Source: Fibrisoma limi BUZ 3
Lineage (GTDB): Bacteria; Bacteroidota; Bacteroidia; Cytophagales; Spirosomataceae
Length of the DNA stretch: 64,000 bases
Assembly (NCBI RefSeq): GCF_000296815.2
Contig: NZ_CAIT01000009.1
Location: 744,001 to 808,000 of the forward strand
Reading direction: 5' to 3'
How positions within the stretch are numbered: the first letter of the stretch is position 1; the number at the start of each line of letters is the position of its first letter. The notes below the pieces were generated by a model that worked only from the letters and a program-made list of their open reading frames with translations, had not been told where the DNA came from and made no database searches. Positions 25,537-29,067 of this stretch are shown here, one piece after another. Made by a program: the position numbers and the translations under genes.

Positions 25537-25581
25537 AAAAAGCACCTCGCTGGTAGATTGACATCCCAGCGAGGTGCTTTT
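25537..25581. terminator. Bidirectional terminator between RNase G and the acyltransferase
   Basis: A near-perfect inverted repeat, arms at 25537-25553 (core AGCACCTCGCTGG) and 25565-25581 (core CCAGCGAGGTGCT), with A runs before and T runs after. It serves both convergent genes. Confidence 0.9.
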
Positions 25582-25593
25582 GCTTTAGAGCGA

Positions 25594-26709
25594 TTAGCAC
25601 AGAACTTCCATCTCTACTAGTTCGCCGAACATTTCTTCGCCAACGAGGCCTTCAACCGAGTCTACTTCATTTAGGTTTAACAATAGATCGCGAAGATCCT
25701 CGGAGATTTCATACGTCTGATAAAGCCGTCTGTCAAACAGAACGGGTGCCTGCTCCAAATCGCATAACGTATAGCGATCCTGATTAAAGGTGGGATGTTC
25801 AGGCCGTTTTCTGGACGACGATTGTTTTGGTGTTTCCCGCTCGAGGAATGAATGAATGTAGTTCCATCCTTCCCATTGGCCGGGGTTCTGGATTAACTGA
25901 GCCCAGAGCGCATCGTAGAGCTGTTGCATTGCTTCCTGACAATACATTTCCCGGTCGCTGTTTCGGATAGGACGGATCGGGTCAAGGAAGTGTAATACGT
26001 TAGATAAATCGGGTTGCCGGTACGTCACCACCGGTACGATCGGTACACCAGCCGCGTGGGATAGATAACCAACTCCTTTGCGAGTCCACACGCGCCGGCT
26101 CCCCAGCTTTACTGATAAAAATTTATCAGTTTCGTTTGCTTCCGGAGCCGTTTCGGGGCTACCATCAACGTACACAATCAGCGACTTTCCAGCTTTTAAT
26201 TCACGCAGAACCGACAGTCCGGCCGATGGATGGCCCGCTTCGATGACCCGGAAAGAATTCTTGCAATTACGCTGTCGACGCAATTCGTCGATGTGCGCAA
26301 GTATGTCGTCTCCTTGATGACGGTTTGTATTATTCCCAATCAGCAGCACACAATCTGTGCCACGCCGGAACAATAAACTGGTTAATATTCGGTAAGAACC
26401 GAAGTGATAAGTACAGTATATACGCGGGCTATCTTGCCGCAAGGCCCAATCATGCGCACCCCGTAGCTTGATCAGATCGCCGGCAGAGAGGCACTGGTGA
26501 TCAAACATGGTAAACACCTGTTGCAGTAACAGCTCATGGAACAGGGCCTCGTGCCTACTACGGGGGATGGAGGGCATAATGTTCTCCATATTGGCTGAGA
26601 AAGTCGTAAACTTCATCAGGTACCCCCGTTCTTTGTGCAGATCGATTTGCTCGAAGTTTTCCCGGCACCGAGTCAATTCCTGCTTATACAGACGTAATGC
26701 GGATGACAT
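25594..26709 (-). CDS. LpxL/HtrB-like acyltransferase with PqqD-like C-terminal tail
   Basis: A 371-aa protein. Residues ~60-285 resemble the lipid A lauroyl acyltransferase (LpxL/HtrB) family: TYHFGSYR at the catalytic position (His102), an intermediate helix DDILAHIDELRRQR, and SLIVYVDGSPE. The canonical HxxxxE motif reads H102 to Arg107, so the Glu is missing. Residues ~308-370 (YTLCDLEQAPVLFDRRLYQTY, EISEDLRDLLLNLNEVDS, MFGELVEMEVLC) have the spacing of a PqqD-like RiPP recognition element. Twenty-two bases upstream on the same strand lies a 55-aa peptide gene that is present twice. Inferred role: modification, perhaps acylation, of that peptide. An ordinary phospholipid acyltransferase is the alternative. 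Confidence 0.7.
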   Translation of the reverse strand: MSSALRLYKQELTRCRENFEQIDLHKERGYLMKFTTFSANMENIMPSIPRSRHEALFHELLLQQVFTMFDHQCLSAGDLIKLRGAHDWALRQDSPRIYCTYHFGSYRILTSLLFRRGTDCVLLIGNNTNRHQGDDILAHIDELRRQRNCKNSFRVIEAGHPSAGLSVLRELKAGKSLIVYVDGSPETAPEANETDKFLSVKLGSRRVWTRKGVGYLSHAAGVPIVPVVTYRQPDLSNVLHFLDPIRPIRNSDREMYCQEAMQQLYDALWAQLIQNPGQWEGWNYIHSFLERETPKQSSSRKRPEHPTFNQDRYTLCDLEQAPVLFDRRLYQTYEISEDLRDLLLNLNEVDSVEGLVGEEMFGELVEMEVLC

Positions 26710-26731
26710 GGTAATGCTAGAATAAGGTTGA

Positions 26732-26899
26732 TTAAAGAGAGAAAACGGTTTCGCGGTTGAGGCCGTGGAAGTAAGGCATCGTCTCGCAGCACTCGCCAGG
26801 CTTGAGGAACTTCAGCAGGTTGTGGGCTTCTTTCTTGGCAGCAGAGGCAACAGCGTTCTTTTGGTTCTGGACCGGCTTGATAGAGAATTGCTTTTTCAT
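26732..26899 (-). CDS. Putative peptide precursor, copy A (55 aa)
   Basis: A 55-aa peptide starting MKKQFSIKPVQNQKNAVASA, with a charged helical middle (AKKEAHNLLKFLKPG), an adjacent Cys pair (ECCETMPYFHG) and the tail LNRETVFSL. It looks like a leader-plus-core precursor: basic, Ala-rich N-terminal part and Cys/aromatic C-terminal part. No signal peptide or GG protease site is visible. The product is identical to copy B. Its stop lies 22 bases before the acyltransferase start, so they probably share a transcript. It was found by direct translation, being below common size limits. Function as a RiPP precursor is inference. Confidence 0.8.
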   Translation of the reverse strand: MKKQFSIKPVQNQKNAVASAAKKEAHNLLKFLKPGECCETMPYFHGLNRETVFSL

Positions 26900-27002
26900 G
26901 GGACTTTGTAGCTTTACGATTTGATAGGTGTAACCTGTGACATAAGGGCTATCGCGTCGTCAGAATAGAAGACCAGCCTTGGCGATAACCGGGTGAAATG
27001 GA

Positions 27003-27170
27003 TTAGAGAGAGAAAACGGTTTCGCGGTTGAGGCCGTGGAAGTAAGGCATCGTCTCGCAGCACTCGCCAGGCTTGAGGAACTTCAGCAGGTTGTGAGCTT
27101 CTTTCTTGGCAGCAGAGGCAACAGCGTTCTTTTGGTTCTGGACCGGCTTGATAGAGAATTGCTTTTTCAT
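27003..27170 (-). CDS. Putative peptide precursor, copy B (55 aa)
   Basis: A second gene for exactly the same 55-aa peptide as copy A, 103 bases upstream on the same strand. The duplicated block is 196 bp (26730-26925 and 27001-27196), including 26 bases before the ATG. The two blocks differ at only two positions, both silent third-codon changes (Leu codon at 27006, Ala codon at 27096). The upstream sequence differs from that of copy A, so B probably carries the main promoter. Confidence 0.8.
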   Translation of the reverse strand: MKKQFSIKPVQNQKNAVASAAKKEAHNLLKFLKPGECCETMPYFHGLNRETVFSL

Positions 27171-27243
27171 GGGACTTTGTAGCTTTACGATTTGATGTTA
27201 GTTTCCTTTGTGAGAGCGCATCCGTTGCGCTGTTTGAACATTA

Positions 27244-27274
27244 CAAAGGTCTATGTTTAATAGAGGGGCATCAA
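27244..27274 (-). promoter_or_regulatory. Candidate promoter of the peptide operon
   Basis: On the minus strand, GACCTTTG (27244-27251) is one base from the TAnnTTTG -7 consensus, and TTG at 27272-27274 lies 20 bases upstream, the usual -33 spacing. The box is 74 bases before the copy B start. It occupies the divergent region shared with the LytTR gene. Confidence 0.45.
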
Positions 27275-27353
27275 TCGCAAAAAAGTCTCAATATGAGGTG
27301 GTGAAATAGTCAAATATTACCACTATCTTAGTACTGATTTATGCTAAGGGATA

Positions 27354-28361
27354 ATGAAGGAGTTACAGTTACATCGAACATATTTACGTAGGCCAATTAA
27401 AAGTATAGCTATCTTAATGGTAGTTGTCCTGTTGGTAGAGACCATGACTTGGTCTCTTGCCTATCCCGTAAAGATGGGGATGGTTGAAAGAGCAGGTGGT
27501 TTTCTACAATATTTCGGCTTTTCTCTACGTAGCCTGCTTTTACCCGAAATATTTACACTATATATACTTCTCACTCTTCTTAGTGAATTTCATGTTGTAT
27601 TTAAGATTAAATCGATAGAAGCTAGTTGGCCAGCTATTGGCCGTTATGAGTTACGATTGCTACCTGTCATTTTACTAGCATTCTTCGTATTTAATCCTGT
27701 TACCCAAACAGTCCGTTTTTTACTTGAACGGTTTCCGAACTACTCGTTCTCAAACTACTGGCATACTTACATAGCAAATACGTTCACGTTCGCCACGTAT
27801 TTCAAGTATCTTATACCGGTACTCCTCATTGGGTATGCCGCCACCAATCTCTCTCTGTTTTCTGATTACCTGCGCCGTCGGCAGGAAGATGAGAACCGAG
27901 AAAAAGCTGCTGGTACCATTACTCCTCAGGTTCAGTTATCTCCTCCCGAACCTGCTCCTGCCCTATCTCGTACCTATACCGGTCACTTAAAAGGCCGAAA
28001 CGCTCATGGGGAATTAGACTTTCCTGTTACGGATGTCTATTTCTTTACCGTTGAGGAGCGGTATTACTATGCAGAATTGTCAAAAGGACGGTATCTGATC
28101 AGTAAAACACTCAATGATTTAGAAACCGAGCTGGACCCCTTTCATTTCTTCCGTATCAAGCGCGATTATATTGTCAATAGACGGTCCGTTTTGAACTACG
28201 CCTACTGGGAAAACGGCAAATATATCGTGAGGCTTGACACTCCCGACAGGCATGAAATTGTTGTTCCCCGCGCCAGAATGCAGGAATTCAGAGAGTGGCT
28301 ACAGGGAAGTCAACGCTCTACCTCCGCAGATGAGTCGACTGGCTCACTTGTTTTCGCCTAA
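27354..28361 (+). CDS. Membrane-anchored LytTR-family transcription regulator
   Basis: A 335-aa regulator. The N-terminal half has four hydrophobic segments (SIAILMVVVLLVETMTWSLA, LLLPEIFTLYILLTLLSEF, LRLLPVILLAFFVFNPV, YFKYLIPVLLIGYAATNLSLF). A Pro-rich linker leads to a C-terminal LytTR DNA-binding domain (DVYFFTVEERYYYAELSKG, HFFRIKRDYIVNRRSVLNY, HEIVVPRARMQEFREWL). No receiver domain or kinase is present, so it may sense a membrane signal directly. It is divergent from the duplicated peptide genes and is the likely local regulator of them. The stop overlaps the end of the LuxR-type gene by four bases. Base composition is more AT-rich than its housekeeping neighbours. Confidence 0.85.
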   Translation: MKELQLHRTYLRRPIKSIAILMVVVLLVETMTWSLAYPVKMGMVERAGGFLQYFGFSLRSLLLPEIFTLYILLTLLSEFHVVFKIKSIEASWPAIGRYELRLLPVILLAFFVFNPVTQTVRFLLERFPNYSFSNYWHTYIANTFTFATYFKYLIPVLLIGYAATNLSLFSDYLRRRQEDENREKAAGTITPQVQLSPPEPAPALSRTYTGHLKGRNAHGELDFPVTDVYFFTVEERYYYAELSKGRYLISKTLNDLETELDPFHFFRIKRDYIVNRRSVLNYAYWENGKYIVRLDTPDRHEIVVPRARMQEFREWLQGSQRSTSADESTGSLVFA

Positions 28362-28678
28362 AGGTAGTTCTTCACTGATATTCCGTATCGAGGCAGTTGT
28401 CTACAGCTTTTCAATTCCAACTTCTGAGCAATTCTAGCTTTATGGTTTACGGCAGTCCGGTAACTAATACCTAACTGATCGGCAATTTCATTGGCTGTGT
28501 GACCATTGGCAACCATACGGAGCACTTCACGCTCACGATCAGACAAACGGCTCAACTCATTTCGGGTGCTTTCTGCCATTACTTCTACACCGTAATTTTT
28601 AAGTAACGACATAAATCCGCTGCTATAGTAACAACCACCGTTACTTACCGTCTGAAAGCACTTATATAGTTCCTCCAA
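28358..28678 (-). CDS. LuxR-type HTH half of a frameshifted response regulator
   Basis: The C-terminal part of a NarL/LuxR-like regulator, 106 aa in this frame: receiver end (EELYKCFQTVSNGGCYYS), then the HTH (LSDREREVLRMVANGHTANE, IADQLGISYRTAVNHKARIAQKL). It begins at a TTG inside what should be the receiver domain, so it is not a natural start. The upstream frame continues sensibly as GFLYASDGLEELYK once one T is added to the T6 run at 28703-28708. See the entry at 28645. If truly broken, the HTH part might still be made from the internal ATG at residue 23. Confidence 0.75.
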   Translation of the reverse strand: MEELYKCFQTVSNGGCYYSSGFMSLLKNYGVEVMAESTRNELSRLSDREREVLRMVANGHTANEIADQLGISYRTAVNHKARIAQKLELKSCRQLPRYGISVKNYL

Positions 28679-29067
28679 GCCGTCACTGGCATATAAAAAG
28701 CCAAAAAACCCATCTGCATTGCGTTAGCAACTAATCGTAAATCGGGCTTGCTTGTATATAAAATGAACTTAGTCCGCTGATTTGACTCCCGCATTTGCTC
28801 AACTATATCAAAACTTCGACGGCCTGAAATTTCAGACTCAAGTATCACACACTCAGGGCGCTTAACCCTGATCTGTTGAAGTGTATCTTCCATTTCAACA
28901 GCCCGGCCCACCACATTATATCCCTGCTCTTTCAACAACTGGCTCAACACTTCACAGTTGAACAACTCGGATTGAGCAACAAGGATAGAGAAATCTTTAC
29001 GTCGAATCGAAAAGTTTTTGCCGGTTGTGCTACGTTCGGCGTCCTGGCCGTTGATCGGTTGATTCAT
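28645..29067 (-). CDS. Receiver half of a frameshifted response regulator (degenerate receiver)
   Basis: The N-terminal part of the same gene. From the start at 29067, residues ~26-122 form a CheY-like receiver (DFSILVAQSELFNCEVLSQL, KFILYTSKPDL, LVANAMQMG). The phospho-acceptor position is Glu77 (CVILESEISG), the acidic pocket pair is Gln32-Ser33, and the conserved Lys is absent in the repaired frame (GFLYASDG). So it is a pseudo-receiver, probably phosphorylation-independent. After Gly120 the frame runs into unrelated residues (LAFYMPVTAWRNYISAFRR) because of a one-base deletion in a T run. Sequencing error, recent mutation, or slippage are all possible. The intact protein would be about 235 aa. 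Confidence 0.75.
   Translation of the reverse strand: MNQPINGQDAERSTTGKNFSIRRKDFSILVAQSELFNCEVLSQLLKEQGYNVVGRAVEMEDTLQQIRVKRPECVILESEISGRRSFDIVEQMRESNQRTKFILYTSKPDLRLVANAMQMGFLAFYMPVTAWRNYISAFRR

Follow-up and report, generated by a model that had tools for sequence, protein, structure and literature searches.

A putative lipo-RiPP locus in Fibrisoma limi pairing a cysteine-bearing peptide with an LpxL-type acyltransferase

Two genes for one and the same 55-residue peptide stand directly before a gene for a predicted acyltransferase in a 64,000-nucleotide stretch of the Fibrisoma limi genome (hereafter the window), and their arrangement raises the question of whether the peptide is the substrate of the enzyme. 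The original prediction, made from the letters alone, was of a RiPP-like lipopeptide locus; as a working hypothesis, this is supported by the pairing of the two genes, their conservation, the predicted enzyme fold and the RiPP context of distant homologues. With moderate confidence, we read it as a lipo-RiPP locus of minimal size, whose LpxL-type enzyme, guided by an RRE, would acylate the precursor, most likely at an invariant cysteine.

Locus layout and the conserved cassette

The 371-aa enzyme (positions 25594–26709, minus strand) was delimited as an ORF and placed in the LpxL/HtrB superfamily, with a C-terminal RRE-like domain, from weak NCBIfam matches and its predicted fold. Its start lies 22 bases after the stop of the nearer peptide gene on the same strand. 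Peptide copy 1 (26732–26899, minus strand) and copy 2 (27003–27170, minus strand), both recognised by ORF and alignment, encode the same 55-aa protein, with the invariant Cys38 at 26786–26788 and 27057–27059, respectively; the ORF coordinates thus agree with the twin genes and 22-base spacing initially described. Sequence comparison placed each copy in a 196-nt direct repeat unit (26730–26925 and 27001–27196, minus strand), the two units being 99% identical with a start-to-start spacing of 271 nt. A search of the host genome at E≤10 recovered the peptide at these two sites only. On the other side of the enzyme, a terminator-like hairpin discerned by eye (25540–25581) separates it from a convergent gene, which we take from its sequence to be ribonuclease-G-like.

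Divergent from the peptide genes lies a LytTR regulator (27354–28361, plus strand; Pfam LytTR domain, E 7.8e-21), whose N-terminal half is hydrophobic (a simple scan marks three such segments), consistent with the membrane regulator originally proposed. It is followed by a LuxR-type response regulator gene (28358–29067, minus strand), recognised from ORFs, domain search and neighbourhoods and present here as two ORFs (28358–28678 and 28645–29067). At 36 of 37 related loci, this regulator is a single ORF of 226–282 aa; the split in the window corresponds to a one-base difference from Fibrisoma montanum, either a mutation or a sequencing error.

Distribution was assessed in 149 related genomes, that of F. 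limi included. An enzyme homologue was found at E≤0.001 in 33 of them, and a profile of 27 precursors, built from the own clade only, matched 25 at E≤0.01. The peptide-positive genomes are exactly those with an enzyme match of E 2.2e-62 or better, and the eight enzyme-bearing genomes without the peptide have matches of 4.0e-59 or worse; with 33% versus 31% identity on the two sides, the border of the peptide-bearing enzymes is narrow. With this own-clade profile, no peptide homologue occurred apart from the enzyme in the 149 genomes, all 25 carriers holding the clade enzyme; solitary peptides of this family had been named in the original prediction as evidence that would count against it. In an even sample of the phylum (395 genomes, own included, with at most four candidates scored per genome), the enzyme was found at E≤1e-10 in six.

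One scan of genome contigs yielded 57 enzyme loci, in 37 of which (L060–L096) one to three precursor copies are present and the precursor ends 4–43 nt before the enzyme match. This clade comprises Fibrisoma, Spirosoma, Larkinella, Runella, Rhabdobacter, Arundinibacter, Persicitalea and some unplaced Spirosomataceae, and its 37 enzymes form one tree group with that of the window (support 84/99). A homologous peptide stands upstream of the enzyme at every clade locus (37/37), and because peptide and clade enzyme also occupy the same 25 of 149 genomes, we regard their pairing as not due to chance. A LytTR gene accompanies the pair at all 37 loci and a LuxR-type gene at 36, the exception (L092) being a 3.9-kb contig. 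Gene calls in the cassette are longest ORFs, with small spurious ORFs intervening in a few loci. The outer flanks vary among genera, and no protease or transporter/exporter gene recurs within the clade cassette. Its gene composition fits a RiPP locus: one or more short precursor genes with a conserved leader and a variable core, adjoined by a putative modifying enzyme.

Among 27 aligned clade precursors, M1, F5, E24 and C38 are invariant. The leader spans residues 1 to ~36 (MKKxFxIK ... AKxE) and precedes a short variable core with one invariant cysteine. The 43 clade precursor genes encode 38 distinct proteins, each with at least one cysteine (30 with a CC pair, eight with a single Cys). A lipoprotein reading was set aside, as inspection by eye reveals no hydrophobic signal sequence in the precursors.

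Between lytTR and the peptide genes, a motif count located the dyad TAGT-N11-ACTA (27307–27325, minus strand), a putative operator. TAGT-N8-11-ACTA occurs in 32 of 38 lytTR–peptide intergenic regions, window included, compared with 2.9% of mononucleotide shuffles, the 38 regions being related and hence not independent cases. Five of the six regions without the dyad differ by one base (TACT), and that of L074 is more divergent. A TA-N2-4-TTTG element follows in 35 of 38 regions, 71–74 nt after the dyad start; the window has TA-N4-TTTG (27242–27253, minus strand; motif scan), most relatives TA-N2-TTTG, and we take it to be promoter-like on its resemblance to the Bacteroidota consensus. The 19-mer dyad of the window has no second perfect copy in the genome, and three genome matches occur with up to three mismatches versus two for a reversed control. 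This rarity fits a local regulator; in our reading, the dyad would be the site of action of the membrane-bound LytTR protein and its LuxR-type companion.

A predicted LpxL-type fold with an RRE-like tail

Predicted with AlphaFold2 from 46 sequences, the enzyme model reached a pLDDT of 89.4 and a pTM of 0.87. Foldseek returned 16 PDB matches at E≤0.001, all of them LpxM, PatA or PlsC, the best being LpxM (1.9e-11) and PatA (5.9e-11), so that the proposed LpxL/HtrB-like acyltransferase finds its counterpart in the predicted fold. At the sequence level, the window enzyme had no Pfam match at E<1 and did not reach the PF03279 gathering score, three of nine homologues scanned exceeded 22.3 bits with this family, and searches with the enzyme or its profile against Pfam, NCBIfam and PDB sequences gave nothing, or weak or spurious matches. 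The LpxL assignment is based on weak NCBIfam matches, on relatives and on the predicted fold. Since the window enzyme escapes Pfam, Pfam-based mining would miss further lipopeptides of this kind, for which the enzyme itself provides a search handle.

The alignment of 46 enzymes revealed a departure from the HX4D/E catalytic motif. H102 and D182 are invariant (46/46), and within H102-F-G-S-Y-R107 (26389–26406, minus strand), position 107, which corresponds to the catalytic Glu of LpxM (5knk title; motif aligned by eye), is Arg in 42 sequences and Gln in four. With the acid replaced, ordinary LpxL catalysis may not apply, and its loss might suit a thiol acceptor.

The C-terminal tail (25597–25791, minus strand) adopts a β-β-β-α-α-α arrangement in the predicted fold, modelled at high confidence; profile support for an RRE is weak and indirect. 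Modelled alone, residues 289–371 retained this topology with a core pLDDT of ~95, and the same strand–helix order is given for the RRE in passages of PMC12710340. The top three PDB matches (E 0.43–0.78, TM 0.48–0.57) were the RRE of PbtF in complex with a peptide and two leader-bound proteins, TbiB1 and a lasso B1 protein. Ten of the first 25 rows were RiPP-enzyme chains, none at E≤0.001 and with WW domains and other folds interspersed.

Profile comparisons gave the tail 0.35% (own clade) and 10.6% (distant set) against PqqD and at most 2.1% against the M50 N-terminal domain (hhalign). The distant-set tail compared with the arginase N-terminal domain at 66% one way and 32% the other, and that domain with PqqD at 29–65%; positive comparisons among the arginase, M50 and PqqD domains span 29–85%, unrelated controls staying below 2%. 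Judged by these profiles, the relation of the tail to PqqD is indirect, through the arginase N-terminal domain only. The PqqD-type tail of the original prediction is thus borne out in its β-β-β-α-α-α topology; its best structural matches are leader-bound RREs, but with a best E of 0.43, and the PqqD profile shows no direct similarity. We regard the tail as a likely RRE.

Distant homologues in RiPP surroundings

At 13 of 20 distant contig loci, the enzyme is accompanied by at least one of LanB, LanC, arginase, M50 protease, ATP-grasp or SPASM partner genes (tblastn, E≤1e-6, family names being tested on examples). Pfam confirmed the LanB and LanC examples; one ATP-grasp (2e-55) and one SPASM partner (4.6e-30) matched NCBIfam below curated cut-offs, as did one M50 protein resembling the daptide metalloprotease (1.6e-26), and the four arginases checked gave E values of 1e-50 to 6e-59. 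Grasp-with-spasm genes are among the RiPP genes of this set. None of the six families was detected at the 37 clade loci (E≤1e-6, up to 8 kb each side), and a class I lanthipeptide reading was rejected for want of LanB and LanC in the same stretches.

Precursors were recognised at 13 of the 20 distant loci, leaving seven without a recognised one. Small ORFs with an ELExRxE motif occur at 10 of 20, with at least nine distinct ones at L101 and six copies at L102. A cysteine follows the motif in 47 of 48 such ORFs across all distant loci examined, a count made irrespective of Cys content, in which L049 and L097 are one locus counted twice and many copies are near-identical. A further type, at L104, L109 and L115 (Gammaproteobacteria MAG), is a 47–49-aa peptide with one Cys, separated from the enzyme match downstream by 184–321 nt. 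L112 may have a Cys-bearing ORF upstream as well, which was left out of the precursor count. Four precursors of the clade type and three of the ELExRxE type were searched against NCBIfam and gave no match. When profiles of the three precursor types were compared, 4, 1 and 1 of 60 column-shuffled profiles scored at least as high as the real ones, with probabilities below 2%; we accordingly do not claim common ancestry of the leaders.

Arginase-family genes stand beside precursors with an R/K–Cys core at L097, L050, L100, L101, L102, L103 and L116. In those inspected, the N-terminal domain is RRE-like, which gives them the look of peptide arginases fused to an RRE.

Genes resembling ketosynthases, ketoreductases and dehydratases were found at L052, L057, L098, L099, L103, L105, L111 and L114, eight entries in which L052 and L111 are one locus; acyl supply is a possible role. 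L099, L105, L114 and L057 may be lipo-lanthipeptide clusters, since lantibiotic dehydratase genes and a gene set resembling a fatty-acid synthase lie near the LpxL-type enzyme there; L099 bears the label Thalassovita, but its genes look like those of Bacteroidota. At L098 and L103, two LpxL-type enzyme genes stand in tandem, with a small ORF that by eye resembles an acyl carrier and with ketosynthase genes in the vicinity of ELExRxE precursors. Very divergent homologues at L053, L055 and L056, in a conserved setting with neither RiPP genes nor recognised precursors, probably have a different function.

Acyl acceptor, alternatives and known systems

In the mechanism that we favour, the C-terminal RRE-like domain would bind the precursor leader, and the LpxL-type domain would load the core with a fatty acyl group whose donor is presumably acyl-ACP, Cys38 being the most likely acceptor, as a thioester. 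The product would probably be a membrane-active or signalling lipopeptide. If acylation does take place, we put the chance that the cysteine receives the acyl group at about even; it is favoured as the sole residue common to all types of precursor. In addition, seven of the distant precursors are devoid of Lys and Arg beyond the leader motif, which counts against an amine side chain as the common acceptor.

Acylation of an amine (Lys, Orn or the core N-terminus), in a selidamide-like or N-terminal manner and with the cysteine serving otherwise, seems unlikely to us. It has precedent, since passages of PMC13060382 and PMC9505594 describe GNAT-lipidated RiPPs as N-acylated and phaeornamide as pairing a peptide arginase with an acyltransferase. 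A lysine follows AKxE in 36 of the 37 own-clade cores scored, although at no conserved position. R/K directly precedes Cys at 7/7 arginase-bearing ELExRxE loci versus 2/6 without arginase (13 distinct loci with Cys-bearing ORFs of this type, L054, L098 and L146 among the latter six being short or cut stretches), yet no arginase match appeared at the 37 clade loci (stretches up to 8 kb each side), and the seven distant precursors devoid of Lys and Arg lack such a side chain altogether. N-terminal acylation would, moreover, have to await cleavage, since an RRE implies a leader-bearing substrate.

LpxL-family enzymes acylate hydroxyls, and Ser or Thr is present in all 37 own-clade cores scored and in all 35 ELExRxE cores scored, the latter set preselected for Cys; O-acylation of a core Ser/Thr would continue this chemistry. 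We nevertheless hold it to be quite improbable, as the aligned precursors share an invariant Cys but not a single conserved Ser/Thr position. Least credible to us is a lipid-modifying or inactive enzyme for which the peptide serves as partner, regulator or membrane anchor, and not as substrate. The LpxM/PatA fold, the HX4R motif and a cassette free of export and protease genes would all suit this alternative, and strict pairing is equally what a subunit would display; against it stand the RRE-type tail, the variable core with one to three precursor copies, and the occurrence of distant homologues next to genes for LanB, LanC and grasp-with-spasm proteins with many precursor copies. The suspicion of an ordinary lipid acyltransferase is favoured by the fold, but disfavoured by the RiPP genes seen at 13 of the 20 distant loci and by the host itself, whose one other PF03279 protein is an ordinary LpxL with HX4E.

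Cysteine acylation remains our preferred reading. More speculatively, and with less confidence than the locus itself commands, we suggest that Bacteroidota and some Gammaproteobacteria make a new RiPP group, thio-lipopeptides, for which LpxL-type enzymes fused to an RRE would S-acylate a conserved Cys behind three leader types. Arginase-bearing relatives would convert the Arg before that Cys to Orn, whose amine could then take over the acyl group from the Cys thioester, and the Spirosomataceae version would be a LytTR/LuxR-regulated lipopeptide signal.

The word 'acyltransferase' does not occur in the main texts of the RRE surveys PMC12710340 and PMC7470986, nor in the main text of PMC10352776 (term searches). 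Among the matches listed in a search of the open-access literature, no title or abstract opening named an LpxL-type RiPP enzyme. The sequence evidence suggests a fatty-acid-tagged peptide made by a route that we did not find described.

Selidamides and lipolanthines share with this locus a ribosomal precursor and an adjoining enzyme gene, with acylation here being proposed. In them, passages of PMC13060382 and PMC9505594 report, a GNAT acyltransferase makes amides on Orn/Lys or the N-terminus, whereas the enzyme here has an LpxM/PatA-like predicted fold of the LpxL/HtrB superfamily, a fused RRE-like domain and a substrate with an invariant Cys. A peptide arginase is a further common element, present for phaeornamide and apparently for some of the distant relatives described here. 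DAG-RiPPs, RiPP–lipoprotein hybrids reported in Bacteroidota (PMC12636315), resemble the proposed product in phylum and in bearing a lipid on a RiPP, but depend on a lipoprotein signal peptide and the Lgt/LspA/Lnt pathway, whereas the present precursors show no such hydrophobic stretch. LpxL/HtrB/LpxM and PatA (PF03279) share the fold and the invariant His and Asp, and differ from the enzymes here, which have HX4R or HX4Q, carry an additional domain at the C-terminus and are paired with a peptide gene; the window copy, moreover, has no Pfam match. Like RRE-fused (PqqD-like) RiPP enzymes, the protein joins a β-β-β-α-α-α domain to a putative tailoring enzyme. We accordingly describe the locus as a variant of lipidated RiPPs with a putative modification. 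If this is true, another enzyme superfamily joins RiPP lipidation and lipid-A-type acyltransferases become tied to peptide natural products, through a peptide–enzyme pair that is small and directly testable in E. coli.
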